DNA of 64,000 bases from Pseudogemmobacter humi (GTDB lineage Bacteria; Pseudomonadota; Alphaproteobacteria; Rhodobacterales; Rhodobacteraceae), in assembly GCF_900609055.1 (NCBI RefSeq), contig NZ_UXAW01000051.1, positions 1 through 64,000 of the forward strand, given 5' to 3'. Of this stretch, positions 37,987 through 54,679 are shown piece after piece. The number at the start of each line of letters is the position of its first letter. The first letter of the stretch is position 1. The position numbers and the translations under genes are program-made. The notes under the pieces were generated by a model. That model saw only the letters and a list, made by a program, of their open reading frames with translations. It was not told the DNA's origin and ran no database searches.

Positions 37987-38666
37987 GCCGCCGCCCGCGG
38001 GGTGAAACCGGTCACATCGACCAGCCGGTCGCAGACCCGGGCACGGGCGCCCTCGTCGTGGAAGATGCCCAGGATCGCTGCGCCGCGGGCCCTGGCCTCT
38101 TCGATCAGGGTCAGGACGACCTCACGGTTGGCGGCGTCGAGGCTGGCGGTGGGCTCGTCCAGAAGCAATGCCGGAAAGGCATGGGCGAAACCGCGGGCGA
38201 TATTCACCCGCTGCTGCTCGCCACCCGAGAAGGTGGTGGGCGAAAGCGACCACAGCCGTTCCGGGATGTTCAGCCGTTGCAGCAGACAAGCCGCACGCTC
38301 GCGTGCCGGTTCGGCCGGGGTGCCTATTGCCAGGAGCGGTTCTGCCACCACGTCCAGCGTCGGCACACGGGGGACTACACGCAAGAACTGGCTGACATAG
38401 CCCAGGGTATGGCGGCGGAGCGCGATGATCTGGCGCGGTTCTGCCCGAACCACGTCGAGATCCCCGACCACAAGCCGCCCGCCCGCGGCCAGGTAGTTGC
38501 CGCAGACCATCCGCATCAGGGTGGATTTCCCCGCGCCGGACTGGCCGGTCAGGCCGACACATTCCCCCGGATTCACAGCCAGGGCGGCCCCGGCCATCAC
38601 CGGGATGACGGCGCCGCCCTGGTTGTGAAGCGTGAAGGACTTCGACAGGTTCTCGATGCGGATCAT
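37983..38666 (-). CDS. phnL: C-P lyase system ATPase PhnL
   Basis: 227 aa ABC-type ATPase that takes part in the C-P lyase complex rather than in transport. Walker A GLTGQSGAGKSTLMRM, signature FSGGEQQRVNIARG, Walker B LLLDEPTASLD. It follows phnK by 4 bp and overlaps phnN by 4 nt. The order phnK-phnL-phnN agrees with other C-P lyase operons; PhnL acts with PhnGHI in attaching methylphosphonate to ATP. Confidence 0.95.
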   Translation of the reverse strand: MIRIENLSKSFTLHNQGGAVIPVMAGAALAVNPGECVGLTGQSGAGKSTLMRMVCGNYLAAGGRLVVGDLDVVRAEPRQIIALRRHTLGYVSQFLRVVPRVPTLDVVAEPLLAIGTPAEPARERAACLLQRLNIPERLWSLSPTTFSGGEQQRVNIARGFAHAFPALLLDEPTASLDAANREVVLTLIEEARARGAAILGIFHDEGARARVCDRLVDVTGFTPRAAA

Positions 38667-38670
38667 GGGC

Positions 38671-40343: not shown

Positions 40344-40376
40344 GGCAATTGCCCCCGTGAAGGATGGTGCGGCAGG

Positions 40377-41468
40377 TCATTCCGCCGCCTCCTGCATCGC
40401 CTGGGCCTCGGCCCGCAGCTTGCGGACCAGTTCCAGCTCGGCCTGGAAGTCGACGTAATGCGGCAGCTTGATATGTTCGAGGAACCCGGTGGCCTGGATG
40501 TTGTCGCAGTGCATCAGGACGAACTCCTCGTCCTGCGCCGGGGCGCCGGTGAAGTCCTCGCCCAGCTCCTGCCAGCGCAATGCCCGGTCCACCAGGCTCA
40601 TCGCTATGGCCTTGCGTTCGGACTGGCCCGGCACCAGCCCATAGCCGCGGGTGAACTGCGGCGGTTCGGTCTTCGAGCCCCTGAACTGGTTCACCGTCTC
40701 ACATTCGGTCAGCTCGATCTCGCCGATCCCGACCGCGAAGCCCAGCTCGGGGATATCGACCTCGACCGCCACGCGGCCGATCCGCAGCTCGCCCACGAAG
40801 GCATGGGTGCGGCCATAGCCGCGCTGTGTGGAATAGGCCATCGACAGGACGAACCCCTCGTCCGCGCGCGCCAGGGCCTGCAACCGCAGCGCCCGGCCGG
40901 CTGGAAGCTCCATCGGCTGGCGGGTCAGGTCTGGCGGCGGGGTATCGTCGGGTGAGGCGGCTTCGATCAGTCCGTCCCGGTTCAGGAAGCCGGTGACATG
41001 CGGGACATGCGCCGTGGGGGACGCCCCGGTCGTGGGGGCGCCAGGGGCAGGCGCACCGCCCTCGGCCATCAGCGCAAAATCCAGAAGCCGGTGCGTGTAG
41101 TCGAAGGTCGGGCCCAGCACCTGTCCGCCCGGCAGGTCCTTGAAGGTCGCGCTGATCCGCCGGTCGATCACCATGGCACCAGTGTCCACCGGCCGCGATG
41201 CGGCCAGCCGCGGCAGGGTGGTGCGATAGGCGCGGATCAGGAAGACCGCCTCGATCAGGTCGCCCCGCGCCTGCTTGATCGCCAGCGCCGCAAGGTCGGG
41301 ATCGTAGAGCGAACCCTCGGCCATCACCCGGTTCACCGCGAGCCGCATCTGCTCGCGGATCTGGGGGATCGTCAGCTCCGGCACCGAAGGATCGCCCCGG
41401 CGCTCCTCGGCCAGCCACTGATGCGCATTGTCGATGGCGCGTTCGCCACCCTTCACGGCCACATACAT
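40377..41468 (-). CDS. phnI: C-P lyase core subunit PhnI
   Basis: 363 aa from MYVAVKGGERAIDNAHQWL, the invariant start of PhnI; the frame is open upstream inside phnH in antisense-like composition. PhnI is the nucleosidase of the complex and, with PhnG, H and L, exchanges the adenine of ATP for the alkylphosphonate. Typical blocks: LTIPQIREQMRLAVNRVMAEGSLYD, AFLIRAYRTTLPRL, QRGYGRTHAFVGELR, FVLMHCDNIQATGFLEHIKLPHYVDFQ. The start shares one base with the phnH stop (TGATG). Confidence 0.96.
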   Translation of the reverse strand: MYVAVKGGERAIDNAHQWLAEERRGDPSVPELTIPQIREQMRLAVNRVMAEGSLYDPDLAALAIKQARGDLIEAVFLIRAYRTTLPRLAASRPVDTGAMVIDRRISATFKDLPGGQVLGPTFDYTHRLLDFALMAEGGAPAPGAPTTGASPTAHVPHVTGFLNRDGLIEAASPDDTPPPDLTRQPMELPAGRALRLQALARADEGFVLSMAYSTQRGYGRTHAFVGELRIGRVAVEVDIPELGFAVGIGEIELTECETVNQFRGSKTEPPQFTRGYGLVPGQSERKAIAMSLVDRALRWQELGEDFTGAPAQDEEFVLMHCDNIQATGFLEHIKLPHYVDFQAELELVRKLRAEAQAMQEAAE

Positions 41469-42037
41469 CAGATCGCCTCCACGCGGGTGGACCGGGGCAG
41501 GCCGGCGATGCGGTCGCCGGCGGTGAAAAGCGTATCGAAGCCCAGCGGGAACAGCGCCCGGTTGGCGCGGAAGGCCGCGGTTTCGGGCAGGTTCAGCCAG
41601 GTTGCCGCCCCGATCCCCGGGCCGGTCAGCGCAGGGCCGTGGTTGACCAGCCGGTCGCATTCCACGATCAGCGTGGCCGAACGGTCGGGATAGTCGGGCT
41701 GGCCGATCCGGAAGCGCGAGACTGGTTGCAGCGCCTCCCAGGGGCCAACCGCAAAATCCGCGTCTTCGGCCTTGGCCAGCGGCGCGCCGATGTGGAAGGC
41801 CACCCAGTCGCGCACGGCAGGGCAGTCGGCCTCGCCCGCGAGGTGCAGGCGTGTCGTCGGGTCGGTAAGGACCAGAAGCGCCACGCCTGCCGCGATGGAC
41901 AGGGGGGCGGGCGGTGTCGCCCCCTGGACCCGCCGGATCGTGCCCGGGCGCGCCATCGCTTCCAAAATCTCGCGGAAGGCGCGGGCGGACTGGACGGGGG
42001 CCTCGGCGAATCCGCCCTCAAGCGCGTCAGCGATCAT
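41468..42037 (-). CDS. phnH: C-P lyase core subunit PhnH
   Basis: 189 aa. Motifs ARAFREILEAMARPGTIRRV, ALLVLTDPTTRLHLAGEA, VECDRLVNHGPALTGPGI and ANRALFPLGFDTLF are characteristic of PhnH. It is a structural subunit in the (PhnGHIJ)2 core. It overlaps phnG by 4 nt and phnI by 1 nt, indicating coupled translation at equal ratios. Confidence 0.95.
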   Translation of the reverse strand: MIADALEGGFAEAPVQSARAFREILEAMARPGTIRRVQGATPPAPLSIAAGVALLVLTDPTTRLHLAGEADCPAVRDWVAFHIGAPLAKAEDADFAVGPWEALQPVSRFRIGQPDYPDRSATLIVECDRLVNHGPALTGPGIGAATWLNLPETAAFRANRALFPLGFDTLFTAGDRIAGLPRSTRVEAI

Positions 42038-42483
42038 TCGTCCTCTCCCCGGACCATGGTGAAGAAATCGACTTTTGTGCCTGCGGCCTTCGCAGCGCGG
42101 ATCGCACGGGCGGCCCCGGCTTCGGCCTCCAGCGGCTGAAGCACCCGCGACATCAGGTCGGAGGCCCGGTCGGTCTGCATCAACGCATCCACTGCCGCCG
42201 CCCGCAGCGCATGGCCCTTGTCGCGGCCCTGCACCCAGGCATGCCCCACTTCGCCCGAGACCAGCCGGACCGAGGCCCGCGTGACCGTCATCTCGCCAAG
42301 GTTGAAGGCCGCGCCGGTCGCCCCGACCCGCCCCCGCACCATCACCGCGCCGATCTCGGGCTGGCGAAGAACAGTATGCACGGGAAGGTCCGGCACAAGC
42401 GCAGCCAGCCGCACCGGCGAAGCCTTGGCAAGCGCGGCCATCCAGGTCTTGCGGGCCAGAGGTGGGGCGTCGGTCATTTTCAT
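42034..42483 (-). CDS. phnG: C-P lyase core subunit PhnG
   Basis: 149 aa. First gene of the C-P lyase operon. Conserved PhnG parts: WMAALAKASPVRL, LRQPEIGAVMVRGRVGATGAAFNLGEMTVTRASVRL and GHAWVQGRDKGHALRAAAVDALMQ. PhnG forms the core with PhnH, I and J. It is divergent from phnF; the 112-bp gap contains the operator palindrome 18 bp upstream of its ATG, where repressor binding would block transcription. Confidence 0.95.
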   Translation of the reverse strand: MKMTDAPPLARKTWMAALAKASPVRLAALVPDLPVHTVLRQPEIGAVMVRGRVGATGAAFNLGEMTVTRASVRLVSGEVGHAWVQGRDKGHALRAAAVDALMQTDRASDLMSRVLQPLEAEAGAARAIRAAKAAGTKVDFFTMVRGEDE

Positions 42484-42595: not shown

Positions 42596-43306
42596 TTGAA
42601 GGAAGCCATCTGGTCCGCCATCGCGGCGGCGCTGACCGAAGAGATCGCCGCTGGTCACTACCGCCCCGGCGACAGGCTGCCGACCGAGGCGACGCTGGCG
42701 GCCCGGTTCGGGGTAAACCGCCACACCGTCCGCCATGCGCTGGCCGCGCTGGCCGAGCGTGGCCTCGTCCACTCCCGGCAGGGCGCAGGGGTCTTCGTGG
42801 CTCCGCGGCCGACTGACTATCCGCTGGGTCGGCGGGTCCGCTTTCACCAGAACGTGCTTGCGGCCGGGCAGACCCCCTCGCGCCGCATCAACAGGGCTGA
42901 GACGCGCCCCTGCGATCCCGGGGAAGCCAGAATCCTTCGTCTGAAGCCGGGCGATGCGGTGCATGTGGTCGAGGGCGTGTCCCTGGCGGATGATCAACCG
43001 ATTGCGGCCTTCCGGTCGGTGTTTCCGGCCGCCCGGTTTCCGGGTCTGCTGGCCTCGGTCCGCGAGACGGGCTCGATCACCCGCTCCCTCGCAGACGCGG
43101 GGCTCACCGACTACACCCGCGCCGAGACGCGGCTGACGGCGCAGCTTGCCGATCCGGTGCTGGCGGTGGCACTGGCAGTGCGGCCAGGCGCGCCGGTCAT
43201 GCGGACGGTGGCGGTGAACGTGGATCCGGCCGGGGCGCCGGTAGAGCTGGGCACGACCTGGTTCGCGGGCGAGCGGGTCACGCTGACGGTGGCGGATCAG
43301 CCCTGA
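42596..43306 (+). CDS. phnF: GntR-family repressor PhnF
   Basis: 236 aa. TTG start; no in-frame ATG is close. Residues 1-70 form the winged helix of GntR regulators (IAAALTEEIAAGHYRPGDRLPTEATLAARFGVNRHTVRHALAALAERG). Residues 90-236 form the UTRA ligand domain of the HutC subfamily (FRSVFPAARFPG, ETRLTAQLADP, VNVDPAGAPVELGTTWFAGERV). It likely represses phnG and itself through the palindrome at 42501-42522. It ends 10 nt inside the convergent hexapeptide-transferase gene. Confidence 0.92.
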   Translation: MKEAIWSAIAAALTEEIAAGHYRPGDRLPTEATLAARFGVNRHTVRHALAALAERGLVHSRQGAGVFVAPRPTDYPLGRRVRFHQNVLAAGQTPSRRINRAETRPCDPGEARILRLKPGDAVHVVEGVSLADDQPIAAFRSVFPAARFPGLLASVRETGSITRSLADAGLTDYTRAETRLTAQLADPVLAVALAVRPGAPVMRTVAVNVDPAGAPVELGTTWFAGERVTLTVADQP

Positions 43307-43914
43307 TATTTTTCCAGGAAGGCCTCGGCCCTCAGGCTGCGGAAGTCGATCAGCGCAGCCCGCAGCCGGTCGTGGCTCCAGTCCCACCAGGCCAGTGCCA
43401 GCAGCCGGTCGGCGATGCCTGCCGCAAAGCGGCGGCGCAGCGGCTGAGCGGGGATCCCGGCCATGATCATGTAGGGAGCCACGTCCCTGGTCACCACCGC
43501 GCCCGAGGCGATGACGGCGCCGGCACCGATGGTGACCTCCGGTTTCACGATCACCCCGTGCCCGAGCCAGCAGTCGGGGCCGAGCACGGTGCGGCGGCCG
43601 GCGCGGTGGGCCATGAATTCGGCATCGTCGGCGATGTCGTCCCAGTAATGGGTCGAGCGGTAAAGGAAATGGTGCAGGCTGGCGTTCGCCATCGGATGAT
43701 CGGTCGGACCGATCCGGGTCATCGCGGCGATGTTGGCGAACTTGCCGACGCTGGTGTTGGCGATGTCGGACAGCCGGTCGCAATAGGCATAGTCCCCGAA
43801 GCCGGAGTTCAGGACGCGGCTGCCCTCGCCCACCTCGCACCAGGCGCCGAAAGTCGAGTTGACGATCAGGCAGCCGGGGTGGACCAGCGGTTCGGTGGCG
43901 GAAAGCTTCGGCAT
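43297..43914 (-). CDS. phosphonate-operon hexapeptide-repeat acyltransferase
   Basis: 205 aa left-handed beta-helix protein: hexapeptide turns such as VGEGSRVLNSGFGDYAYC, GPDCWLGHGVIVKPEVTIGAGAVIASGAVVTRDV and MIMAGIPAQPLRRR. It belongs to the xenobiotic/chloramphenicol acetyltransferase-like group found in C-P lyase operons (phosphonate metabolism, transferase hexapeptide repeat). By analogy with PhnO it may acetylate aminoalkylphosphonates, but this is not shown. It lies one nt downstream of the second permease gene, at the end of the phnCDEE unit. Confidence 0.9.
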   Translation of the reverse strand: MPKLSATEPLVHPGCLIVNSTFGAWCEVGEGSRVLNSGFGDYAYCDRLSDIANTSVGKFANIAAMTRIGPTDHPMANASLHHFLYRSTHYWDDIADDAEFMAHRAGRRTVLGPDCWLGHGVIVKPEVTIGAGAVIASGAVVTRDVAPYMIMAGIPAQPLRRRFAAGIADRLLALAWWDWSHDRLRAALIDFRSLRAEAFLEKYQG

Positions 43915-43915
43915 C

Positions 43916-45244
43916 TTACGCCCCCTTGATCAGCCTGCGCCGCAGCCAGCCCGAGAGGCTGTCCATCAGCATGACCATCAGCACGATGAGGACCATGTAG
44001 TAGGCCACCTCTTCCCAGTCCTTCTGGGTGTTGATCGCCTGGGTCAGCAAAAGCCCGATCCCGCCGCCAACGATGGCGCCGATGACGGTGGCGCTGCGGG
44101 TGTTCGATTCCAGATAGTACAGGATCTGGGACAGCAGCACCGGCGTCACCTGTGGGATCACGCCGAACCGGGCGCGCTGCAGGCCGTTGGCGCCGGTGGA
44201 CCGGATCCCCTCGACCTGCTTGTCGTCGATGTTTTCCAGCGCTTCCGAGAAGGTCTTGCCGAAGGTGCCGGAATCGGTGATCGCGATGGCGATGGCGCCC
44301 GTCATCGGCCCCGGGCCAAAGGCACGGCTGAGGATGATGGTCCAGATCAACCCGTCCACCCCGCGGATGAAGTCGAAGACCCGGCGGGCGACAAAGCGCA
44401 GCGGGCCGAGCGGGTTGAAGTTCCGCGCGGCGAGAAAGCTCAGCGGCAGGGCCACCAGCGCGGCCGACATGGTGCCCAGGAAGGCCATGAGGATCGTCTC
44501 GAAGATTGCCCAGGCCACGTCTCCGTGCCGCCACATCTTGTTGGTCCAGAACTCGCGGGCCATGTAGCCGAGGTTCGTCCGCGCGGGGTCGATCCGGTCG
44601 GCGGTCGTGGCCAGCGCCAGAAGCTCGCCCCAGGACTTGCCGTAGAACGGGCTGTCGAGGGTGAAGAACCAAAGCTCCCAGCCCGGCTCGTATCGGAAGG
44701 TCTCGACCTTCGAGCGCGAGTAGCTGAAGCGCCCGGCCGCGGTGGTGGCCGAGACCTTGTTTTCCGACACGCTGATCCAGTCGGGGATCGGCCGGGGCGC
44801 GGTGAGGACAGGCTTGCCGCCCTCGGGCCGGATGTCGAGGGTGCCGTAGCCGGGCACGACATAGCGCGCGCCCCGGTCGTCGTAGGTGACGACATGGCCC
44901 CCGCCGAGGTCGATGGTGGTGACATTGCCCGCAATGCCCACCCATTCCGGCACCATGCCCTCGGGATAGGTGCCCTTGGCCTCGCCCTCGATGGCGATGG
45001 TGACGCGGCCGGTGCGGTTGTCGCGGGTGACATGGGTCTTGTGCGACCAGAAGTCGCCCAGAAGGATCGCGGCATTTTCAAAGCGGGCGCGCTGCACCAG
45101 ACCCGTGATATCGAAGCTGACCGCGGCATAGACCAGATAGACCAGGATCACCGTGGGGATCGCGAAGGCGATGCGGCGGCCGGCGGCGAAGCGGCGGGTG
45201 ACCGTCTCGGCAAGTGCGGGTGCGGGTGCGGGCAACGCGGTCAT
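43916..45244 (-). CDS. phnE: phosphonate ABC transporter permease PhnE (long form)
   Basis: 442 aa. One helix near 25-45 (IAFAIPTVILVYLVYAAVSF) is followed by a large polar region of about 150-170 residues, presumably periplasmic (ENAAILLGDFW..FYGKSWGELL), then the permease core (AWAIFETILMAFLGTMSAALVALPLSFLAARNF, FIRGVDGLIWTIILSRAFGPG, EAL loop GTFGKTFSEALENIDDKQVEGI). PhnE proteins are usually 260-290 aa; the extra domain is uncommon outside alphaproteobacteria. It is paired with the shorter permease upstream (3-bp gap). Confidence 0.9.
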   Translation of the reverse strand: MTALPAPAPALAETVTRRFAAGRRIAFAIPTVILVYLVYAAVSFDITGLVQRARFENAAILLGDFWSHKTHVTRDNRTGRVTIAIEGEAKGTYPEGMVPEWVGIAGNVTTIDLGGGHVVTYDDRGARYVVPGYGTLDIRPEGGKPVLTAPRPIPDWISVSENKVSATTAAGRFSYSRSKVETFRYEPGWELWFFTLDSPFYGKSWGELLALATTADRIDPARTNLGYMAREFWTNKMWRHGDVAWAIFETILMAFLGTMSAALVALPLSFLAARNFNPLGPLRFVARRVFDFIRGVDGLIWTIILSRAFGPGPMTGAIAIAITDSGTFGKTFSEALENIDDKQVEGIRSTGANGLQRARFGVIPQVTPVLLSQILYYLESNTRSATVIGAIVGGGIGLLLTQAINTQKDWEEVAYYMVLIVLMVMLMDSLSGWLRRRLIKGA

Positions 45245-45247
45245 GGT

Positions 45248-46126
45248 TCAGTTCCCCCTGACCAGCTTGTGGCGGCAGCGGTCGGAAACCTGGTCAATCA
45301 GGACGATGGTCAGGAACAGCAGTGCGAAGATGGCGACAACTTCGTCATAGCGGCCCTGCCCCCATTGCATCGCGATCTTCAGGTCGTGGCCGATGCCGCC
45401 TTCGCCGACGAAACCCAGGATGGCCGAGGCGCGGACGTTGATCTCGAACCGCAGCAGCGCATAGGACAGCCAGTTCGGCGCAACCTGGGGGATGACGCCC
45501 AGCCACATGCGCTGGCCCCAGCTGGCGCCGACCGAGGCCAGCCCCTCGACGGGCTTCAGGTCAGCATTCTCGGCCACCTCAGAGAACAGTTTGCCCAGGG
45601 CACCGCCGGTGTGCAGCGCAATGGCGATGACGGCAGGCACCGGGCCGCCGCCCAGGATATAGATCAGCACCAGCGCGACGACGATCTCGGGGATCGCCCG
45701 CAAGGCATCCATCGCGCGGCGGAAAAGCGGGATCAGGCGCGGCCAGCGTGCAAGGCCCCGCGTGGCCAGAAGCGACAACGCCATCGCGGCCATCGCCCCC
45801 GTCAGCGTGGCGACCGCGGCAATGTTCAGCGTCTCGATCAGGGCGGGGATGTGATCGCGGAAGATCGCAGGCAGAAGCGCCCGCTTCTCCCAGGCCTCGG
45901 CCAGGACTTCGGCGGGAAAGTCGAACAGCTGGCCCAGGCCACCGAGGAACCCGCCTGCATTGCGGTCCTCGGCCAGCCGCCAGCCCGAGGCCATAAGGGC
46001 CACGAAAACGACCAGCAGGATGCCGCCATACATCCGCTTGCGCCGGACCAGGTCCAGATAAGCAGCTTGCGGGTCGACAAGATTGGGGCGGCGGCCCGGT
46101 TCGGGACCGAAGGCGACATCGACCAT
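45248..46126 (-). CDS. phnE: phosphonate ABC transporter permease PhnE (short form)
   Basis: 292 aa. A cytosolic N-terminus of about 30 residues precedes the first helix (MYGGILLVVFVALMASGW). Permease core: IPALIETLNIAAVATLTGAMAAMALSLLATRGL, FRRAMDALRAIPEIVVALVLIYILGGGPVPAV, and coupling loop GALGKLFSEVAENADLKPVEGLASVGAS. It forms a heterodimeric channel with the long PhnE. 61 bp downstream of phnD. Confidence 0.93.
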   Translation of the reverse strand: MVDVAFGPEPGRRPNLVDPQAAYLDLVRRKRMYGGILLVVFVALMASGWRLAEDRNAGGFLGGLGQLFDFPAEVLAEAWEKRALLPAIFRDHIPALIETLNIAAVATLTGAMAAMALSLLATRGLARWPRLIPLFRRAMDALRAIPEIVVALVLIYILGGGPVPAVIAIALHTGGALGKLFSEVAENADLKPVEGLASVGASWGQRMWLGVIPQVAPNWLSYALLRFEINVRASAILGFVGEGGIGHDLKIAMQWGQGRYDEVVAIFALLFLTIVLIDQVSDRCRHKLVRGN

Positions 46127-46187: not shown

Positions 46188-47084
46188 TCAGGTGCCTTCC
46201 TGCATCTTGCGGGCGGCGATTATGCCGTCGTAGTCCGAGTGTTTGACCGGAACGAAGTCCCTGGCCTCGCCGGCGGCGACGGAATAGGCACATTCCGGGT
46301 CGGTTTCCCACAGGTCGGCGGTCAACCGGGTGACCTTGTCCTTCACATCCTGCGGCAGAGCCTTGCGCAGGACCATCGGGCCTTCCGGGATCAGCGCCGA
46401 GCGCCAGATCTCGACCAGGTTCGACATGTCCACGAGACCTGCATCGGCGGCCTTGCGGAAGGCGCCGGAGTTGTAGCCGTCTTCCCAGTTGCCCAGGCCG
46501 TCGGCCCAGCTGACGCCCGCATCGAAATCGCCGTTGGCAACGCCGACGATAGTCTGTTCATGCCCGCCGGACATCTTCACTTCGCCGAAATAGGACTTCA
46601 GGTTGCCATATTCAGCCGCCAGTTCGGCGCCGGGGACCAGGTAGCCCGAGGTCGAGTTGGGGTCGGCGAAGGCGAAGACCTTGCCCCTGGCGTCTTCCAT
46701 TGAGGTGATGCCGGTGTCCCTGCGGGTGAAGCCGATCGAATAGTAGCCGGTCGAACCATCCACGTTCTGCTTGGTCAGCCTGACTTCTACCGCTTCCGGA
46801 TCGGTCAGATAGATCTTGGCATAACCCGAAGCTCCGAGCCAGGCATAGTCCAGTGTGCCGCCCAGCAGGCCCTGGATCACGCCGTCATAGTCGGCGGGGG
46901 TGAACAGCTTGACCGGAACGCCCAGTTCCGCCTCGATCCTGACGCGCAGGCACTCGTTCGAGGTCAGGCGATCCTGGGCGTTCTCGCCCCCGAGGATTCC
47001 GATGTTGAATTTCCTGATCTCCTGCGCGGTCGCGGCAGAGGCCAGGATCGCGGTCAGGACGGTTGCGGTCAGCAGCTTTTGCAT
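46188..47084 (-). CDS. phnD: phosphonate-binding protein PhnD
   Basis: 298 aa. Signal peptide MQKLLTATVLTAILASAATAQ, then a PhnD-type binding fold: FNIGILGGENAQDRLTSNECLRVRIEAELGVPVKLFTPADYDGVIQGLLGGTLDYAWLGASGYA, GKVFAFADPNSTSGYLVPG. The SAY/Ser-Thr loop for the phosphonate group is seen in DPNSTSGYL. It supplies 2-aminoethyl- or alkylphosphonates to PhnC-PhnE-PhnE. Confidence 0.94.
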   Translation of the reverse strand: MQKLLTATVLTAILASAATAQEIRKFNIGILGGENAQDRLTSNECLRVRIEAELGVPVKLFTPADYDGVIQGLLGGTLDYAWLGASGYAKIYLTDPEAVEVRLTKQNVDGSTGYYSIGFTRRDTGITSMEDARGKVFAFADPNSTSGYLVPGAELAAEYGNLKSYFGEVKMSGGHEQTIVGVANGDFDAGVSWADGLGNWEDGYNSGAFRKAADAGLVDMSNLVEIWRSALIPEGPMVLRKALPQDVKDKVTRLTADLWETDPECAYSVAAGEARDFVPVKHSDYDGIIAARKMQEGT

Positions 47085-47120: not shown

Positions 47121-47939
47121 TCACGACAGCATCAGGTCGGCATAGGTGCCGTCTGCCGTGGTATCGGCGGGGAGGGAGGTCGAGGTCGCCGCCTCGTTGA
47201 AGCCGGCGTCAGCGCCGTAGATGTCGCGGGCAACGCCCGTGGACAGCTGGTCCGGGGTGCCGTCGAAGACGATCCGGCCGTCGCGCATCCCGATGACACG
47301 GTCGCAGTAGCGTCGCGCGGTGTCGAGCGTGTGCAGATTGGCGATGACCATGCGCCCGTCCTCTGCGTTGATGCGCTTCAGCGTGTCCATGACGACCTGG
47401 GCGTTCATCGGATCGAGGCTGGCGATGGGTTCGTCGGCGAGAATGATCTTCGGGTCCTGCATCAGCGCCCGGGCAATGGCGACGCGCTGCTGCTGGCCAC
47501 CCGAGAGCGCCTCGGCGCGCTTGGGCGCCTGTTCGGCGATGCCGAGACGGTCGAGGATCTCCAGCGCGCGCAGGATGTCGGCGCGGGGCCAGAAGTTGAA
47601 CATGGTCTGAAGCGTCGTGCAGCGGTTCAGGATGCCGTGCAGCACGTTCGAGGCCACATCGAGCCGGGGCACGAGGTTGAACTGCTGGAAGATCATCGCG
47701 CATTGCGATTGCCAGGCGCGCGCCTCGGCCCCCTTCAGCGCCAGGACGTTGCGGCCGCCAACGCGGATCTCGCCCGAGGTGGCGTCGAGCAGGCGATTCA
47801 TCATCCGCAGGAAGGTGGATTTACCCGCGCCCGAACGGCCGATGATGCCCACGAAGGCCGGGCTGTCGATGCGGAAGCTGATATTGTCGACCGCGGCCTT
47901 CTGGCCGAACATCCGCGTCACGCCCTGCACGTCCAGCAT
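47121..47939 (-). CDS. phnC: phosphonate ABC transporter ATPase PhnC
   Basis: 272 aa from [21 protein letters not shown]; the frame extends upstream but without similarity. Walker [22 protein letters not shown]-loop ..[20 protein letters not shown], signature [17 protein letters not shown], Walker [25 protein letters not shown]. First gene of the phnC-phnD-phnE-phnE-transferase unit; a candidate PHO box lies 67 bp upstream. Confidence 0.94.
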
Positions 47940-48027: not shown

Positions 48028-48936
48028 CTACCATCTGATGTGGCGGGGCCAGACAAAAGTCTCGTCAGGGTCCCTGAGCGCCGGGTCCGCAAGCGCCATG
48101 CAGCGTCGCCGCAGTTCGGCCGCCACCCGGTCGCGGTCGAGCAGGCGCAGCTCTGCGGCCGGAACCGGCGCGCCGAGGCGCAGCTCGACCGGCTGGCCGA
48201 TCCGGCGCCGGGTTTCATGGAAGATCAGCGCCACGCGCAGCGCATAAGAGGTGTGGCTGGCGATCTGGAACAGACGCGTGTTCTGCCCGGCGAAATGCAC
48301 CGGAAGAGTGGTCACGCCGGGAATCGTTGCCAGCCGCCCGACGAAGGGGTGCCAGGCCGCATCCACCGCGCGGCCCCTCAGCGGCCGGTTCGCCGTGGCC
48401 ACGCCGCCCGCGGGGAAGACGGCCACGACCTCGCCCGCCTGCAAAAGCGCGGCCGCGCGCCGCCGGGTCTCGACCGTCAGCCGCCGCGCTTCGGGTGTGC
48501 CCGAGAAATCGACGGGCAGGAGGTAGGGATCGACCTCGGGCACCCGGCAGAGCAGGCTGTTCGTCAGGATGCGCACATTGCCGCGCATCTGCATTCCCAG
48601 ATGGCCGATGGCCAGCCCATCGATGACGCCGAAGGGATGGTTCGCCACAAGAAGAAGCCCACCCGATGCCGGCACCGCCTCCAGATGCCCGGCCCCTGCG
48701 GCAATCTGCGGGTCGATCCGCAGCTGGCGCAGCGCGGCCGAAAAGACCGGCATGCCCAGAGGCCGGTCGCACCATACCCAGTCGAGGTAGAGCCGCCGCA
48801 GCCTGCGCTGGCCGGTCAGCATTTCGACCGCGCGGATCAGGCTGCGGCGGAAGCGTGACTGGCCCGGGTGGGAACAGGTGAAGTCGATCTGCGGCGCGGC
48901 GGGAAGGCTGTCGAAATCGGCAAGCGCATCAAGCAT
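48028..48936 (-). CDS. lysophospholipid acyltransferase-like protein of the second phn operon
   Basis: 302 aa. The LPLAT motif appears as [20 protein letters not shown] (about 96-115), the HPFGxxDG variant of the 'hemolysin-like' acyltransferase group rather than the NHxxxxD of PlsC. Further blocks: [30 protein letters not shown] (the FPxG block) and [20 protein letters not shown]. There is no membrane helix of note. Acyl acceptor unknown. It overlaps phnM-like gene 48929-50182 by 8 nt and is the last gene of the operon; lipid modification beside phosphonate uptake is the notable point. Confidence 0.88.
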
Positions 48937-50182
48937 TGGGGCCTCCTCCGAGGGCGGGTTCGGGTCGGCGGACGACGGGCAGGGCCGAATATCCGGGCCG
49001 GCCCGAAACCCAGGTGCGCAGGGGGGCCGGGGCCTGGCCTTCGGGCCAGTCGAGCAGAAGGAGGTCGGCGCGCAGCCCGGCGGCGATCCGCCCCCGGTCG
49101 GCCAGCCCCATCGCGCGAGCCGGATTCAGCGAAACGAGCGCCCACAGGACCGGCAGCGGTGCCACCCGGTCGGCGTGCAGCCGCACCATGGCCCCCAGCA
49201 TGGCAGGGTAATAGTAGTCGGACGCCAGGATGTCGCACAGCCCGCGCGCGATCATCTGCGCGGCTCCGGGGCTGCCGAGGTGGCTGCCGCCGCGCATGGC
49301 GTTCGGTGCGCCCAGCACGATGGCATCGCCCGCCTCGCGCGCGGCAAGGAAGACGCGCTCGTGCATCGGGAACTCGGCCACCGTCGCGCCCAGCCCGCGA
49401 TAGTATCTGCGGGTTTCGGCCTGGCTGTCGTCGTGGCTGAGCATCGGTGCCTTGTGCGTCCGGGCCAGCGCCGCCATGCGGGCGATATGGTCCGGGACCT
49501 CGGCGCGGCGGGCCCAGACCCTGTTGAGCAGCGCCACATAGTCCTCGGGCAGGATATGGGCGCGAAGGGCCTGGTCGGCCATCTTCTTCCGGAAGCGCGG
49601 TGCGTCGAAAGGGGTGACCGGATAGGGATCGATCTGGTCAAAGGGCCGGTCCTGAACTGCGACATCGGGGTGAAGGAGCATCGAGCTCGTATGGTCGTTG
49701 AAAGCCAGCGCCGGGCGATCGGCGCCAGCCAGGGCATGGGTGATCAGGGGTTCGGCCTCATGGCAGAAGGTTTCCCACCGCAGTTGCAGGCGGTTCTCGG
49801 CGGTGAGGCGGGGGCGGAGGCGTTCCAGTGCGCGGAGGATCCGCCAGCCGGTATCGACGCTGCGCAGACCGGGTTCCCAGGACAGGGTCAGCGCGTGATA
49901 GGCGGTGGCGATGCCGTTGGCGGCCAGCTGGCGGTCGGTCTCCAGCAAGGCGGTTTCCACAGGCACCATGACGCCGGGGCGCGGCATGACCTGACGCTCG
50001 AAGGCGTCGCCGTGCATATCGACGAAGGCCGGGGCCAGGATGCGCCCGCGCGCCGGGATGACGGCCGCGCCGTCGCGCGCAACATCGATGCCGGTGATCC
50101 GCCCGCCCTCGATGCGGACCGAGGCGATCTCGACCCGGTCGTCCAGGATGACGCGGGCGCCCTCGATCAACTCGGCGCTCAT
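48929..50182 (-). CDS. divergent PhnM-like amidohydrolase
   Basis: 417 aa amidohydrolase of the PhnM group (COG3454-like). Metal-site motifs are kept but differ from the canonical copy: APAFVDMHGDAFERQVMPRPG instead of LHTDNLERH, LAFNDHTSSMLL, MLSHDDSQAETRRYY. Gly/Ser-rich region APNAMRGGSHLGSPGAAQMIARGLCDILASDYYYP matches the PhnM C-terminal half. It is about 36 aa longer than the PhnM at 35559 and sits outside the C-P lyase operon. It may act on a related phosphate or pyrophosphate ester rather than on the PhnM substrate. It overlaps both neighbours. Confidence 0.88.
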   Translation of the reverse strand: MSAELIEGARVILDDRVEIASVRIEGGRITGIDVARDGAAVIPARGRILAPAFVDMHGDAFERQVMPRPGVMVPVETALLETDRQLAANGIATAYHALTLSWEPGLRSVDTGWRILRALERLRPRLTAENRLQLRWETFCHEAEPLITHALAGADRPALAFNDHTSSMLLHPDVAVQDRPFDQIDPYPVTPFDAPRFRKKMADQALRAHILPEDYVALLNRVWARRAEVPDHIARMAALARTHKAPMLSHDDSQAETRRYYRGLGATVAEFPMHERVFLAAREAGDAIVLGAPNAMRGGSHLGSPGAAQMIARGLCDILASDYYYPAMLGAMVRLHADRVAPLPVLWALVSLNPARAMGLADRGRIAAGLRADLLLLDWPEGQAPAPLRTWVSGRPGYSALPVVRRPEPALGGGPNA

Positions 50183-50847
50183 GCCAGACGCTCCGCCAGA
50201 AGATGCCAGGGCGATGAACCGGGCTTTTCATGCGGCCGGTCGAACAGCGCGAGAATCTCGACCCCCCGGAGCAGCGACAGAAGGTTGGCTGCGGTGCAGA
50301 AATAGTGTGGATGTCTCTTGTCGCCCGGTCCGTCGAAAACCCGGGTGTTGCGGCTGATCTCGCGGCAGGGGGCCTTCACCTGTTCCACCGGCAGGCGGCG
50401 GGCGGACAGCAGGGTTTCCATGAAGCTGCCGCCCGGGCGCAGGACGCGGGCAACCTCGGACAGGGCGCGGCGGACGACGGCTTCGCCACCGTGGCAGACG
50501 ACGTTCCAGGCCAGCACTTGGTCGAAGCTGGTCGCCGCGAACGGCAGATTGGTCATCGGCGCCTGGACCACCTGGACGGGCACGGCCCGGGCGAAGGCGG
50601 CGGCGGCAATGGCGGCGGTCGCGGCCTCGGCGGCGTCCGGCGCTGTGACCTCGTGGCCCGGTTCGGCGAAGGCCAGTGCGTGGCGAACAATCGCGGCGCC
50701 GGGGTCCAGGACGCGCGATCCCTGTGGCAGGCCGCGGGCATGGTCCATCGCCCAGGGTTCCGGCACCGCCCGGGGCGAGGCATTGTCGGCCTCCTTCCAC
50801 TCGGCGTTCCGGTAGTGGTGGGCCGTGTCGGTGACCATCCGGTTCAT
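50179..50847 (-). CDS. class I SAM-dependent methyltransferase-like protein
   Basis: 222 aa. Methyltransf_11-like pattern: motif I region GSRVLDPGAAIVRHALAFAEPGHEVTAPDAAEAA, a post-motif VQAPMTNLPFAATSFDQVLAWNVVCHGGEA and EVARVLRPGGSFMETLLS. Motif I lacks the usual GxGxG (GAAIVRH instead), so SAM binding is not certain. The C-terminal part DKRHPHYFCTAANLLSLLRGVEIL resembles ubiquinone/menaquinone-type methyltransferases. Overlaps with phnE (50844-50847) and phnM-like (50179-50182) show translational coupling. Confidence 0.82.
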   Translation of the reverse strand: MNRMVTDTAHHYRNAEWKEADNASPRAVPEPWAMDHARGLPQGSRVLDPGAAIVRHALAFAEPGHEVTAPDAAEAATAAIAAAAFARAVPVQVVQAPMTNLPFAATSFDQVLAWNVVCHGGEAVVRRALSEVARVLRPGGSFMETLLSARRLPVEQVKAPCREISRNTRVFDGPGDKRHPHYFCTAANLLSLLRGVEILALFDRPHEKPGSSPWHLLAERLA

Positions 50848-51638
50848 ATCAGTTTCCTCCGAATCCAGCCCGAGCCCTGCTCGACGGCGATGACCAGCCC
50901 CAGCATCATCAGGATGATCGCCAGCGCCTCGTCGTAATTGAAAAGGTCGAAGGCGACCTTGAGGTCCACCCCGATGCCGCCCGCGCCGACAAGGCCCAGC
51001 GCGGCCGAGCCTCGCATCGATTTCTCAAGTGCGAACAGCGAGGTGGCGGTGAACGAGGGCATGCAGGCCGGGATCACGGCCGAGCCGATGATACCCAGCC
51101 GGCTGGCGCCGATGGCACGCAGCGCGTCCTGCGGGCCGGGGTCGGTCTCCTCCATCGCCTCGGCGAAGAAGCGGCCGGCGAAGCCGATCTTGTCGACCAT
51201 GATCGCCATGACCCCCGCGGCGGGGCCGAGGCCCACGATGATGATGAAGACGATGGCCCATACGAGATCGGGCACGGTGCGGAACAGCGCGATCAGCGCC
51301 CGGGCAGCCTGACGGACCAGCGGGTGCGGCGACAGGCGGTCTGTGGCGAGGATCGCGAAGGGAAGCGCCAGGATCAGGCCCAGGAAACACCCCGCGACGG
51401 CCATCTGCAGGGTTTCCAGAAGCTTCCAGCCGATGGGCACGATGCATGTGAAGTCGGGCGGGAACATCCGGGTCAGAAGGCCCGAGGGTGCAAAGAGCCG
51501 GGCGATGCCGCTGCCAAGTTTGTCTGGCGCCGGGGCGGTGGCCGCGAGCGAGGTCACGACCAGCGTCAACACGGCCAGCAAGGCGGCATATTCCACCAGG
51601 CTGCGGTGCCGGAAGCGGGCGGGGGATTGGGAGATCAT
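50844..51638 (-). CDS. phosphonate-type ABC transporter permease of the second operon
   Basis: 264 aa PhnE-family permease. Helices: LVEYAALLAVLTLVVTSLAAT, LLETLQMAVAGCFLGLILALPFAILATDRL, ALIALFRTVPDLVWAIVFIIIVGLGPAAGVMAI; coupling loop FAGRFFAEAMEETDPGPQDALRAIGAS. Single permease gene, so it presumably forms a homodimer. It overlaps the ATPase gene (51635-51638) and the methyltransferase gene (50844-50847). Confidence 0.92.
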   Translation of the reverse strand: MISQSPARFRHRSLVEYAALLAVLTLVVTSLAATAPAPDKLGSGIARLFAPSGLLTRMFPPDFTCIVPIGWKLLETLQMAVAGCFLGLILALPFAILATDRLSPHPLVRQAARALIALFRTVPDLVWAIVFIIIVGLGPAAGVMAIMVDKIGFAGRFFAEAMEETDPGPQDALRAIGASRLGIIGSAVIPACMPSFTATSLFALEKSMRGSAALGLVGAGGIGVDLKVAFDLFNYDEALAIILMMLGLVIAVEQGSGWIRRKLI

Positions 51639-52447
51639 GCGGCCTCCGCATGATCGAAGAACTGCCGCAGGCCGGCGGCGTTGGCATGCCGGGTGGGCTG
51701 GTCCAGCGCGATCCGGCCGTTGGCGAGACCCAGGATACGGTCGGAAAAGCGCAGCGTGTGCTCCAGCCGGTGTGAGATGACCAGAAGCGACAGTCCCTCC
51801 TCGCGGACAAGACCCAGAAGCAGGGACATCACTTCTTCCCCTGTCTGTGGGTCAAGGCTGGCGTCCGGCTCGTCGGCCAGGATGAAGGCCGGGCGCTGCA
51901 TCAGCATACGGGCGATGGCGACGCGCTGCTGTTGGCCGCCGGACAGGTTGTCGACGCGCAAAAGCGCGCGGTCGGCAAGGCCCACGCGGGCAAGGCAGGC
52001 CATCGCCTCGTTGCGCACCGCGGCGGGCGCCAGCGCCTGCGCCCAGGTGCGCGGGCCCGGGATCCGCGCCTGCGCGCCGTGGATCACGTTGGAAAGGGCG
52101 GACAGGCGGGGAACGAGATTGTGACGCTGCCAGACGATCCCGACCTCGGCCCGGAAGCGGCGCAGCCCTCGCGGAGTCAGGCGACACACATCGCGGCCGA
52201 GCATCCGGATCTCGCCGCCCGAGGGTTCGACCAGCCGGACAAGACAGCGCAAGAGCGTGGACTTGCCCGACCCGTTCGCCCCGATCAGCGCCGTCGCCTG
52301 GCCGGGGGCAAGCGTGAAGCTCAGGCCCTGCAACACCTTGCGGCCCGGAAAGTCCCTGGTCAGACCGGCCACGGCAAGGACCGGCTCCGCTACGGCGGAT
52401 CCGGTCAGCGGCGGCGGAGAAAGCGGGGCGTTCACCGGCTTACTCAC
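51635..52447 (-). CDS. phosphonate-type ABC transporter ATPase of the second operon
   Basis: 270 aa. Walker A ALIGANGSGKSTLLRCLVRL, Q-loop IVWQRHNLVPRLSALSNVIHG, signature [17 protein letters not shown], Walker B AFILADEPDASLDPQTGEEVMSLL. The RHNLVPRLSxLxNVxHG segment is typical of PhnC. Only about half-identical by eye to the PhnC at 47121, so it is a distinct paralogue rather than a recent duplicate. It overlaps the binding-protein gene by 8 nt. Confidence 0.92.
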   Translation of the reverse strand: MSKPVNAPLSPPPLTGSAVAEPVLAVAGLTRDFPGRKVLQGLSFTLAPGQATALIGANGSGKSTLLRCLVRLVEPSGGEIRMLGRDVCRLTPRGLRRFRAEVGIVWQRHNLVPRLSALSNVIHGAQARIPGPRTWAQALAPAAVRNEAMACLARVGLADRALLRVDNLSGGQQQRVAIARMLMQRPAFILADEPDASLDPQTGEEVMSLLLGLVREEGLSLLVISHRLEHTLRFSDRILGLANGRIALDQPTRHANAAGLRQFFDHAEAA

Positions 52448-53306
52448 CGACGAATTCGGTAAACTCGGTGATGCCGAGGTTCCTGAACATCGCGCGCACC
52501 ACGTCGTAGTCGGCGTCGGTCACCTTCGGGTTGAACCGGCCGCCGAGATATTTGGCGTTCTCTTCCGTGCGGGTCAGCGCCGCCAGGATCGCCTCTCCAT
52601 TGTCAGCGAAGGTCTTGCGCACCTTTTCGACCACCTCGGGCGCCACCCTGGCCGAGGCGAGCAGGATGTCGTCCGGCAGTTGCGGACCCTTGGCCAGGAC
52701 ACGGAACTTCTGGTCGGGGAACTTGCCGGCGATACTGTCGATATGGGTGCGGTTCAGGCCGATCGCGGAGATTTCCCCCCTGATCAGCGCCTCGACCGCG
52801 ACATTTCGGTTCAGGAACACCGGCTGGTAATCCACCCCGTAGGCCAGCCCCGCCCGGGTCAGCAGTTCCACCGGGCCGAGGTGCTGCGAGGTCGAGCCGA
52901 TCTCGCCGAACGAGATCATCTGTCCTTTCAGGTCGGCGGGGGTCTTCACCGGGCTCTCGTCCAGCACGACGACCGTGGAATAGTAATCCGGCCGCACCCA
53001 GGTGACGACCGGCCGGGCATCGAGCCGCGCGTTGAACACCACATATTCCGAAGGGCCGGTCAGCACGAAGTCGACCTGGTCGGCGGCCATCGCCTCGACC
53101 GCGACGGTGCGGCCGGACACCGGGAAGAACTCGACCTTCAGGCCCGAGGCGGCTTCGAACGCCTCCTTGAATGGCCCCATCTCACGCTGCAGCGCTTCCA
53201 TCCCGTCAATGTCGGTGACCGCAAAACGAATGGTGTCCTGGGCCACGGACTGGGTGGCCGTCGCAATGCCGATGGCCAGAAGGCCCGAGGCGAGAAGGTG
53301 TTTCAT
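52440..53306 (-). CDS. PhnD-like substrate-binding protein of the second operon
   Basis: 288 aa. Signal peptide MKHLLASGLLAIGIATATQSVAQ. Binding fold: IRFAVTDIDGMEALQREMGPFKEAFEAASGLKVEFFPVSGRTVAVEAMAADQVDFVLTGPSEYVVF, then LKGQMISFGEIGSTSQHLGPVELL. The phosph(on)ate loop reads GEIGSTSQHLG, unlike DPNSTSGYL of the first PhnD, so a different ligand is plausible. First gene of the operon; a good PHO box lies 72 bp upstream. Confidence 0.9.
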   Translation of the reverse strand: MKHLLASGLLAIGIATATQSVAQDTIRFAVTDIDGMEALQREMGPFKEAFEAASGLKVEFFPVSGRTVAVEAMAADQVDFVLTGPSEYVVFNARLDARPVVTWVRPDYYSTVVVLDESPVKTPADLKGQMISFGEIGSTSQHLGPVELLTRAGLAYGVDYQPVFLNRNVAVEALIRGEISAIGLNRTHIDSIAGKFPDQKFRVLAKGPQLPDDILLASARVAPEVVEKVRKTFADNGEAILAALTRTEENAKYLGGRFNPKVTDADYDVVRAMFRNLGITEFTEFVGE

Positions 53307-53370: not shown

Positions 53371-53395
53371 CGGACAGGTTACAGGACTGCGACAG
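53371..53395 (-). promoter_or_regulatory. PHO box upstream of the second phn operon
   Basis: On the minus strand CTGTCGC-AGTC-CTGTAAC is a good two-half-site PHO box (12 of 18 matches to CTGTCATAAATCTGTCAC), followed at once by a third CTGTCCG half-site. It ends 65-72 bp before the phnD-like ATG. This is the best PHO box in the window. Confidence 0.6.
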
Positions 53396-53884: not shown

Positions 53885-54679
53885 TTAAACCCCGGCACCA
53901 TTGTGCGATTTCGTCTTCATCTGCGGCAGATATTCATAGCCGGTGCAGAAAACCGCATGTTCCGCGACCAGAACCTCGCCCTTCGCCGTCGCCAGTGCGA
54001 TGCCAGAGGGCAGTTCGGCCATGTCGGTAATCTCGACGGGCGAGACAATGCGCGCCTTCTGCGACAGTGTGGCCTGCAAAAGCCCCGCCGTCAGTTGCGC
54101 CGGGTTGGCCGAGGCCGAGGCCTCTGACCAGATCGCGGCCGGGCGGTCCATCGCGTATCGATCCATCAGATCGGCGCGTTTCAGATAATCGGCGCGGATG
54201 CCGATCTCCTGGCGCGCTTTCGCCTCATGCGCCAGCGCCCGCGCGCCCATCTCGTTCCCCGCCAGATAAAGCGCAGGCTTCGCGCGCATCTGGCAATCGA
54301 GTTTCAGCCTGCCGGCCAGCGCGACCAGATCCTCCACCGCGCGCACAGACCGCAACCAGGCCCGGTCGGCATGATCCTTGCCGATCTTCTTCCTCAGCCT
54401 CGTCAGCGGCACGTCGATCTCATGCTGGATCATCGCAGTTGACGCCGGGGTAGAGCCGCGAACGGCGGGGCGGCGGTCAAGGATCAGCACCGATTTTCCC
54501 GCCCGCGTCAGCGCCTCGGCCACCAGCCCGCCCGAGATGCCGGCACCCACCACGATCACATCGAAACGGTCGCGGGGCAGGCGCGGCTCGGTGGCAACCG
54601 CCGAATGCGGCGTTTTCACCCAGAAAGGGGTGCCGGTGCGCAGGTCATCCTTGCGGGTCTTCGCCTTGTGCTTCGCCAT
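53885..54679 (-). CDS. FAD-dependent oxidoreductase, C-terminally truncated
   Basis: 264 aa remain. The dinucleotide-binding start FDVIVVGAGISGGLVAEALTRAGKSVLILDRR is intact, followed by the DAO-type region (STAMIQHEIDVPLTRLRKKIG, ALAHEAKARQEIGIRADYL) and AVFCTGYEYLPQMK. Family members have about 370-400 aa; here a TAA follows directly after KTKSHNGAGV, at the border to the fragment at 53537-53884. The missing C-terminal third holds the second half of the FAD fold, so activity is doubtful. It starts immediately after the pdeM stop. Confidence 0.75.
   Translation of the reverse strand: MAKHKAKTRKDDLRTGTPFWVKTPHSAVATEPRLPRDRFDVIVVGAGISGGLVAEALTRAGKSVLILDRRPAVRGSTPASTAMIQHEIDVPLTRLRKKIGKDHADRAWLRSVRAVEDLVALAGRLKLDCQMRAKPALYLAGNEMGARALAHEAKARQEIGIRADYLKRADLMDRYAMDRPAAIWSEASASANPAQLTAGLLQATLSQKARIVSPVEITDMAELPSGIALATAKGEVLVAEHAVFCTGYEYLPQMKTKSHNGAGV

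Follow-up and report, generated by a model that had tools for sequence, protein, structure and literature searches.

The usual picture of C-P lyase is of a single pathway served by a single importer and a single PhnM. The operon described here, from Pseudogemmobacter humi, resembles the E. coli phnCDE genes in the families of its binding protein, ATPase and permease (D2, C2 and E3), in the Phosphonate-bd domain and in its phn setting, but differs from them in the gene order, D-C-E followed by genes for a methyltransferase (MT) and a PhnM-like hydrolase (M2), and in adjoining a full phnCDEE operon. M2 is homologous to PhnM, sharing metal-site residues and the GAPN..RGGSH and SDY motifs, while forming a clade of its own. 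The product of the last gene, LPLAT, has the Acyltransf_2 domain in common with the OlsA/OlsF/GlsA O-acyltransferases, differing from these in being a second copy in its genome and linked to phn genes. Among characterized binding proteins, PtxB and HtxB, which bind phosphite and hypophosphite (available parts of PMC5700983), are the nearest solved relatives of D2 and of one D2 relative, and the GpxB glycerol-1-phosphate importer of Phaeobacter (available parts of PMC12718374) also belongs to the PhnT family and comes from Rhodobacterales.

The window is the whole analyzed stretch, 64,000 nucleotides long (contig NZ_UXAW01000051.1 of assembly GCF_900609055.1, positions 1 to 64,000). The open reading frame listing and the profile matches confirm six genes in the same direction, each overlapping the next (by 8, 4, 4, 4 and 8 bases from D2 to LPLAT), and, as the earlier note had stated, no C-P lyase gene lies among them, phnGHIJ being absent between 53306 and 48028. 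A canonical phn operon in the same direction begins 88 bases 3' of the LPLAT stop, and the downstream block extends from 47939 down to 35559, comprising phnC-D-E-E-hexapeptide, phnF, phnG-N and the canonical phnM (Table 1).

Table 1. Features of the six-gene unit and of the downstream phn block in the window.
Feature	Position	Strand	Basis or remark
Pho-box-like direct repeat upstream of D2	53378-53395	-	10/14 positions
Six-ORF unit	53306->48028	-	ORF listing, Pseudogemmobacter humi window
D2, phnD-like	52440-53306	-	PhnD/PtxB-type periplasmic binding protein, altered pocket
C2, phnC-like	51635-52447	-	PhnC-type ABC ATPase
E3, phnE-like	50844-51638	-	PhnE-type permease
MT, class I SAM methyltransferase	50179-50847	-	Pfam Methyltransf_11; degenerate in window genome
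M2, PhnM-like metallohydrolase, separate clade	48929-50182	-	PRK15446.2-3 profiles over cut-off
LPLAT, OlsA/GlsA-type O-acyltransferase	48028-48936	-	Acyltransf_2 over cut-off
Canonical phnC	47121-47939	-	ORF listing; start set at internal Met
Canonical phnD	46188-47084	-	TIGR03431 301 bits, over cut-off
phnE1	45248-46126	-	TIGR01097 237 bits, over cut-off
Presumed phnE2	43916-45244	-	Position and recognition
Phosphonate-linked hexapeptide transferase	43297-43914	-	TIGR03308 289 bits, over cut-off
Presumed phnF-like regulator	42596-43306	+	Recognition
phnG, phnH, phnI, phnJ, phnK, phnL, phnN	37462-42483	-	Same order recurs in relatives; all but phnJ presumed, by position and recognition
phnJ	C101:39507-40319		PF06007 471 bits; present in window genome
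Presumed DUF1045 gene	36800-37480	+	ORF listing
Canonical phnM	35559-36704	-	TIGR02318 429.4 bits, cut-off 390.55

D2 is a member of the Phosphonate-bd family (124 bits, cut-off 27), but, in distinction from the E. coli importer, it scores under the PhnD cut-off (TIGR03431, 67.9 vs 261.1 bits) and has the head His and a conserved Tyr replaced. C2 is likewise under its cut-off (TIGR02315, ABC_phnC, 229.8 vs 266.1 bits), and E3 is over the one for permeases (TIGR01097, 246.5 vs 216.7 bits). The closest solved structure to D2 is PtxB (5o2j). As in PtxB and HtxB, the STS phosphonate motif is retained (S138-T139-S140, invariant in 21 aligned rows, 20 of them D2-type), and so is the hinge Tyr of the PtxB-type pocket (Y108), whereas the capping Tyr of PtxB/HtxB is Asp213 in D2 and the site of the PtxB head His is Asn168 (HMMER alignment to PtxB; MAFFT moves this site by one residue, which in the window protein is still not His). 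The replaced conserved Tyr is Arg66. GpxB differs from D2 in keeping the head His (His199). Roles of these sites in PhnD/PtxB-type proteins follow the available parts of PMC5700983 and PMC12718374. The divergence noticed earlier is real, and the pocket of D2 is altered.

The distribution of the operon was studied in 295 genomes of the family, one per genus. Full-length M2 matches are found in 34 of them; this count leaves out G216 (a 130-residue fragment, 64%) and G004 (two segments, 52-53%), both of which have phnJ. The phnJ gene is present in 33 of the 34 M2 genomes, compared to 114 of the 261 others (Fisher p 2.8e-10, kinship not corrected), and the sole M2 genome with no phnJ match, the 480-contig draft G091, carries the block. 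In nine of the 34 genomes M2 is not beside this importer, and all nine have phnJ. The complete D2-C2-E3-MT-M2 run is seen in 18 of the 34, with two more cut by contig ends (according to our reading of the loci). These five genes constitute the core of the unit, and chance is excluded, since their order recurs in other genera. Tabrizicola aquatica (L105) is one culturable relative that carries the whole block. In many loci the block adjoins the canonical or a second phn operon. Several contigs, recognized by their length and by identical scores, occur both among the named loci and in the family sample (L181=L035, L111=L036, L123=L038, L179=L045).

The co-occurrence of M2 with phnJ leads us to reject the operon as a system separate from C-P lyase. 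What stands of the initial interpretation is a second phosphonate-type importer that is linked to its partners, a methyltransferase and a divergent PhnM, in a conserved block, while the suggested occurrence apart from C-P lyase is contradicted both by phnJ and by the canonical operon immediately downstream, and the coupling to lipids is weak (see below). On balance, it is probable that the operon serves the C-P lyase pathway as an accessory cassette for uptake and pre-processing, and that it is expressed when phosphate is short. We infer the substrate class, the reaction of M2 and the role of MT as follows. D2, E3 and C2 would import a phosphorus compound that is poorly handled by the neighbouring ordinary PhnD importer, and M2 would hydrolyse a P-O bond in this compound or in its ribose-linked intermediate, so that the compound could be fed into, or could complete, the C-P lyase route whose genes follow immediately downstream. 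A linked accessory of this kind, which recurs and brings an importer and a PhnM-like hydrolase of its own, would mean that some organisms widen the set of phosphorus compounds fed into C-P lyase, and the cassette offers named genes for testing.

By its profile scores M2 is over the NF011987 cut-off (359 vs 253 bits) and under the canonical PhnM cut-off (TIGR02318, 280.5 bits), which the other PhnM of the window passes. In the tree M2 is one clade (support 100/99) and PhnM another (100/98), and M2 as a canonical PhnM was rejected on both grounds. The contrast between MHGDAFERQ in M2 and LHTDNLERH in the canonical PhnM had been read correctly and marks the two clades; the N-terminal half of M2 is changed relative to PhnM (e.g. 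HGDAFERQ, LRWETF). Still retained from both other PhnM groups are H57, D59, R68, R135, D163, H164, H250, D251, D252, E270, N294, R297 and D322, and E137 and H301 are also retained in the alignment with the canonical PhnM of the window. We take H57, D59, H164, H250 and D322 to be the amidohydrolase metal ligands. The AlphaFold2 model of M2 (pLDDT 90) has the amidohydrolase-superfamily fold; most of its structural matches (TM about 0.5) are dihydroorotases, allantoinases and CRMP proteins, and solved-structure matches by sequence are allantoinases only, neither search pointing to a substrate.

The metal ligands, together with several conserved arginines, would also suit a second alpha-D-ribose 1-phosphonate 5-triphosphate diphosphatase, the operon then being a second broad importer, with redundancy and no new chemistry. 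The NCBIfam name of the PRK15446.2 models and the NF011987 score agree with this, as do organisms with two phnM copies, one of them outside the operon (available part of PMC9381506). However, we regard it as unlikely, given the separate clade and altered N-terminal half of M2, the D2 pocket unlike PhnD at the head histidine, and the retention of M2 alongside the canonical PhnM. Both proteins are encoded in the window and also in several relatives (L050, L052, L055 and L126, for example), and so M2 is not the sole diphosphatase there.

The claim that the methyltransferase is conserved with the transporter holds for other genera, where MT is directly upstream of M2 in 20 of 21 copies. In the window genome the ORF is intact, yet the sequence is degenerate: 14 of 76 conserved columns are altered, SAM motif I among them, compared to 0-1 changes at conserved positions in each of D2, C2, E3 and M2 (the four rows from duplicate contigs were dropped). 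The glycine-rich motif I, kept in the orthologues, is lost (L49P, G52A, G54V), and dN is 0.16-0.18 between the window copy and its three nearest copies, compared to 0.05-0.07 among those three. As judged from its sequence, MT is decaying in this genome and is probably idle, a warning against inferring function from an intact frame alone. The fold search, with a relative's protein heading the MT alignment, yielded ordinary small-molecule methyltransferases, with PmtA at ranks 29 and 32. One genome (G172) has the importer and MT without M2. In relatives MT may condition a subset of substrates, by analogy with PhnO, which acetylates aminophosphonates in E. coli (available part of PMC10574752).

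The MT of one relative weakly matches the ArsM and TehB models, AioX and ArrX are among the solved relatives of the canonical PhnD, and ArrX among those of one D2 relative. Along with an ArsK-like MFS gene that follows M2 in five clade II loci, this could point to a cassette handling arsenic or another oxyanion compound rather than a phosphonate. We consider this highly improbable, as the link to phnJ is strong and the one ArsK-like protein scanned is under the cut-off (281 bits vs 400).

LPLAT contains the Acyltransf_2 domain (PF19576, 41.9 bits, cut-off 27), and the profiles it matches best are those of O-acyltransferases for ornithine and glycine lipids, though it is not an equivalog of OlsF (101.9 vs 620 bits, the match covering the N-terminal half) or GlsA (58.4 vs 260 bits). 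The window genome also has OlsB, over the cut-off, and a second OlsA-type gene, 38% identical to LPLAT. These genes, and the overlap of LPLAT with M2, are what the proposed coupling of phosphonate or phosphate-ester uptake to membrane-lipid head groups would build on, and LPLAT directly follows M2 in 16 of 22 distinct fetched LPLAT loci, a share biased by most of these loci having been fetched for holding M2 (L035 and L181 counted once). In the family sample, by contrast, just three of the 34 M2-bearing genomes have LPLAT next to M2. Orthologues at 46% identity or more occur in eight genomes: beside M2 in three, before phnC without adjoining M2 in two (G285, G022), beside neither in two (G034, G077), and in one (G155) both M2 and LPLAT run into contig ends, breaking the adjacency. 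LPLAT of L098 and M2 of the same genome (L039) also run into contig ends. In five loci M2 runs straight into phnC without LPLAT. The acyltransferase is thus not conserved with the transporter, a result that the earlier note had named as refuting its reading, and since shared starvation regulation would account for the neighbourhood without metabolic coupling, we find the lipid head-group reading quite improbable. Under the preferred reading of an accessory C-P lyase cassette, LPLAT would be a lineage-specific OlsA-type enzyme in the same gene run, its simplest role being the synthesis of lipid without phosphorus in response to the same starvation signal.

Pho-box-like repeats matching at least 10 of 14 positions precede 21 of 23 clade I loci, while the shuffle mean is 1.5; because the mononucleotide-shuffled control was made from sequences that are related to one another, kinship inflates the excess. 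The 10/14 match of the window is, taken alone, at the chance level, and Pho boxes with at most three mismatches number 2 in the window vs 2.6 expected, neither being upstream of D2. We infer Pho control of the operon in the window genome. Inside the six-gene unit there are two terminator-like sites (2.6 expected) and one promoter-like site (0.5 expected).

In relatives, 9 of the 30 scanned loci have one palindrome both in front of D2 and in front of phnC-b or phnF-2, the module thus having an operator in common with a second phn operon; in the window this clade II operator has one match with three mismatches, vs 1.0 expected. Of the four Fe-S/radical cysteines, three are missing from PhnJ of the second operon in every copy checked; PhnI of the second complex keeps the zinc histidines. 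The clade II strain Pseudotabrizicola alkalilacus DJC (L174) is an example with both the module and the second complex. In the open-access literature, which leaves most subscription journals outside, we found no description of the six-gene operon or of a cysteine-poor PhnJ. Tentatively, and with considerable doubt, one may suppose that D2-C2-E3-MT-M2 and the second PhnGHIJKLM of these relatives form one regulon, in which the complex would attach a phosphorus compound to ribose with no radical cleavage of the C-P bond; the module would provide that compound and the steps that the complex lacks, namely P-O hydrolysis by M2 and activation through methylation. In that case the window would represent a branch wired to the canonical lyase, with a dispensable methyltransferase. 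A cysteine-poor PhnJ partner would question the purpose of the C-P lyase complex.

In 36 of 80 named loci, from Rhizobium and further genera, M2 stands as a gene on its own. Among the neighbours in these 36 loci there is no partner common to most of the M2 genes, two gene groups being found near M2 in nine loci each, and so M2 need not depend on the D2-C2-E3 importer. Among the loci of other PhnM-like paralogues (L070, L072-L074), the one scanned, L070, has two proteins without a match, an alpha/beta hydrolase and GroEL as neighbours.

The six ORFs in one direction described in the earlier note were recovered at their positions, all of them on the minus strand, with neighbours overlapping by 4 or 8 bases. 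Eighty-eight bases past the stop of the last one, the acyltransferase gene LPLAT, there starts a run of phnC, phnD, phnE, phnE and a hexapeptide transferase gene (TIGR03308) in the same direction, followed by phnF (opposite strand), phnG-N and the canonical phnM. The profile search of the window genome (143 contigs; nearest named relatives Tabrizicola and Rhodobacter) yielded one full phnJ and a second, partial match (26.5 bits, on C109). Upstream of D2 there is a short ORF that we take to be FAD-dependent oxidoreductase-like; it looks truncated and is followed by apparently non-coding sequence, a possible scar. A TraI-type acyl-homoserine-lactone synthase match scores below its cut-off.

Coordinates of the module genes and associated features (L, individual loci; G, sampled genomes)
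Feature	Location	Strand	Remarks
D2	window 52440-53306	minus	phnD-like; phosphonate-binding domain present, PhnD cut-off not reached
C2	window 51635-52447	minus	PhnC-like, score under the PhnC-model cut-off
E3	window 50844-51638	minus	over the PhnE-model cut-off
MT	window 50179-50847	minus	class I methyltransferase
M2	window 48929-50182	minus	over the NF011987 (PRK15446.2-3) cut-off, not over the canonical PhnM model
LPLAT	window 48028-48936	minus	over the Acyltransf_2 cut-off; nearest profiles OlsF and GlsA
Oxidoreductase-like ORF	window 53885-54679
Pho-box-like site	window 53395-53378	minus	10/14
Palindrome pairs	L054 4935 and 15619; L057 12678 and 12863; L171 6845 and 20469
Palindrome at both D2 and second operon	L049, L050, L054, L056, L057, L061, L064, L171, L182
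J2	L057 15711-16625; L186-L201		16 loci of 15 genomes; L186 is the same gene as the L057 copy
Further PhnM-like paralogue	L071 8080-9261; L102 4868-6070; L117 16756-17958
MT2	L042 7129-7947		example
ArsK-like MFS gene	L054 9221-10510
Xylose-isomerase-like gene	L054 10443-11312		TIM-barrel
TraI-type match	G000 C125:35487-35750 (L239 3341-4189)

In the family sample (295 genomes, one per genus), M2 was identified by full-length match in 34 genomes including the window's, each at 52% identity or more; G216 and G004, matched only in pieces, were left out. The complete block D2-C2-E3-MT-M2 is present in 18 of the 34, contig ends cut it in two (L043, whose MT is moreover broken into two frames, and L051), five retain the importer and M2 with MT absent or fragmentary (L039, L049, L055, L063, and L058 with altered order), and nine have M2 without the importer. 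At E up to 1e-25, MT has orthologues in 21 family genomes, directly before M2 in 20; in the remaining one, G172, MT follows D2-C2-E3 without M2. Thus MT is tied to the module, yet has been lost more than once. Other loci, whether or not they have MT, carry a different SAM methyltransferase, MT2, after M2.

The module is strongly associated with C-P lyase. The 147 of the 295 genomes in which phnJ is found comprise 33/34 M2 genomes and 114/261 others (Fisher p 2.8e-10, kinship between genera uncorrected), among them all nine with M2 away from the importer. Hence the block without phnGHIJ, whose occurrence the earlier note proposed to test, is essentially absent in this sample. The only M2 genome where phnJ was not found, G091, is a draft in 480 contigs that carries the full block (C44; L045, L101), being either a true exception or an assembly gap. 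We consider it rather probable that the cassette would import a phosphorus compound when phosphate is short, M2 would open a P-O bond in this compound or its ribosylated form, and C-P lyase would act after that step.

In the maximum-likelihood tree of 49 PhnM-like proteins M2 forms one clade (support 100/99), apart from canonical PhnM (100/98) and second-operon PhnM (100/99), and closest to a mixed group of further PhnM-like paralogues; of these, L070 also exceeds the NF011987 cut-off. M2 retains the likely metal ligands plus R68, R135, D163, D251, D252, E270, N294 and R297; many PhnM-fixed positions are replaced, chiefly in the N-terminal half. Its AlphaFold2 model (pLDDT 90) matches dihydroorotases and allantoinases. 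Given the separate clade, the kept ligands and the fold match, M2 is probably an active metallohydrolase whose substrate is akin to the PhnM substrate without being identical to it. The main rival explanation, a plain second PhnM plus a second importer, seems distinctly less probable than import followed by P-O bond opening. In some canonical phn loci, phnF or the hexapeptide gene has a further PhnM-like paralogue nearby.

In D2, S138-T139-S140 and Y108 are invariant across the alignment of 21 proteins (20 D2-type). The S-T-S motif and the equivalent Tyr are shared with the phosphite-binding protein PtxB, while, according to the HMMER alignment, the STS-H histidine of PtxB is replaced by Asn168, its conserved Tyr (Y49, printed chain numbering) by Arg66, and its capping Tyr by Asp213. 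The latter coincides with Asp205 of PhnD, which holds the amine of 2-aminoethylphosphonate; the roles of these sites are taken from PMC5700983 and PMC12718374. The hypophosphite-binding protein HtxB, likewise without the STS-H histidine, binds a head with just two P-O groups. By analogy with HtxB, it is a fair guess that the D2 ligand head may have fewer free oxygens, e.g. an ester or a phosphinate.

The methyltransferase of the window (METHYLTRANSFERASE) appears to be decaying in this genome. Compared with 42 orthologues (four duplicate contigs dropped), it is changed at 14 of the 76 columns conserved at 95% or more, while the worst of the orthologues has 5 such changes; the same test gave 1/71 for D2, 0/87 for C2, 1/85 for E3 and 0/143 for M2, LPLAT being outside the test. 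The changed sites include W13, W26, the motif I residues L49, G52 and G54, Y118, W169, W212 and H213. A dN of 0.16-0.18 separates it from its three closest copies, against 0.05-0.07 among those three at similar dS, and no comparable excess is seen in D2, C2, E3, M2 and LPLAT. The reading frame is open and SAM motif I is lost, which points to selection having relaxed or function having been lost recently, barring a local sequence error.

Upstream regions (270 bases, of which about the last 30 lie within D2) were scanned for 23 loci of clade I and 23 other loci. A Pho-box-like repeat (at least 10/14) is present in 21/23 clade I loci (shuffle mean 1.5, largest 6) and in 7/23 others (mean 1.7, largest 6); the window's own site, at 10/14, would be insufficient alone. 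A palindrome occurs in 14/23 other loci (shuffle mean 0.15), just before D2 in 13, and in 1/23 clade I loci. In nine of the 30 loci scanned whole, it (at least 12/14) precedes both D2 and phnC-b or phnF-2, suggesting that the module and the second phn operon may form one regulon.

In relatives with the shared palindrome, the module neighbours this divergent operon, a second phnGHIJKLM. The most surprising thing met in this analysis is the complex containing its cysteine-poor PhnJ, J2. The four Fe-S/radical cysteines considered are the ones that PMC9947105 assigns to the putative Fe4S4 site; three of them are missing in 15/15 J2 alignment rows, and the four-cysteine motif is failed by 16/16 J2 proteins (15 genomes, G250 twice; partly overlapping with the aligned rows). 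In canonical PhnJ, three cysteines are each kept in 22/22 rows and the fourth in 21/22, with one gap; canonical PhnJ sampled in other families of the class keep the motif in 29/29 cases. PhnI2 of the second operon retains an H..H motif, which we equate with the zinc histidines. J2 was found in 15/295 family genomes, 11 of them among the 34 M2 genomes (Fisher p 9e-9, strict); the others are G216, where a partial M2 shares the contig with J2, and three genomes that have no M2 (G074, G171, G250). In G074, J2 is the single PhnJ match. The reverse association is weaker, since 23/34 M2 genomes lack J2, including the window genome, where no match was found. When 385 genomes of the class were compared, only the family member G210 had a match exceeding 52% identity, 29 others being cysteine-checked. 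In the open-access literature searched, no account was found of J2, of the operator shared by both operons or of the conserved block of five genes.

LPLAT orthologues (at least 46% identity) occur in 8/295 family genomes. LPLAT adjoins M2 in three of the 34 M2 genomes (own, G191, G104), directly precedes phnC without adjoining M2 in G285 (L095) and G022 (L096), and adjoins neither in G034 and G077 (L097, L099); in G155 both M2 (L039) and LPLAT (L098) reach a contig end, so adjacency cannot be read. Among 22 distinct loci, most chosen because they hold M2 (L035 and L181 taken as one), LPLAT follows M2 in 16, precedes phnC in 14, and does both in 11. In five loci M2 runs into phnC without LPLAT. 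LPLAT is therefore a feature of one lineage's phn neighbourhood, not of the module. A second Acyltransf_2 gene is also present in the window genome, as is OlsB, which at 423 bits exceeds its cut-off of 350. An economical reading of this neighbourhood would be co-regulation of phosphonate use and phosphorus-free lipid synthesis; the lipid reading of the operon itself, proposed in the earlier note, appears unlikely.

An arsenical role for the cassette, of which an ArsK-like MFS gene neighbouring M2 in five loci of clade II gives a hint, is very improbable. Downstream of M2 in clade II, as in L054, the ArsK-like gene is accompanied by a xylose-isomerase-like gene.
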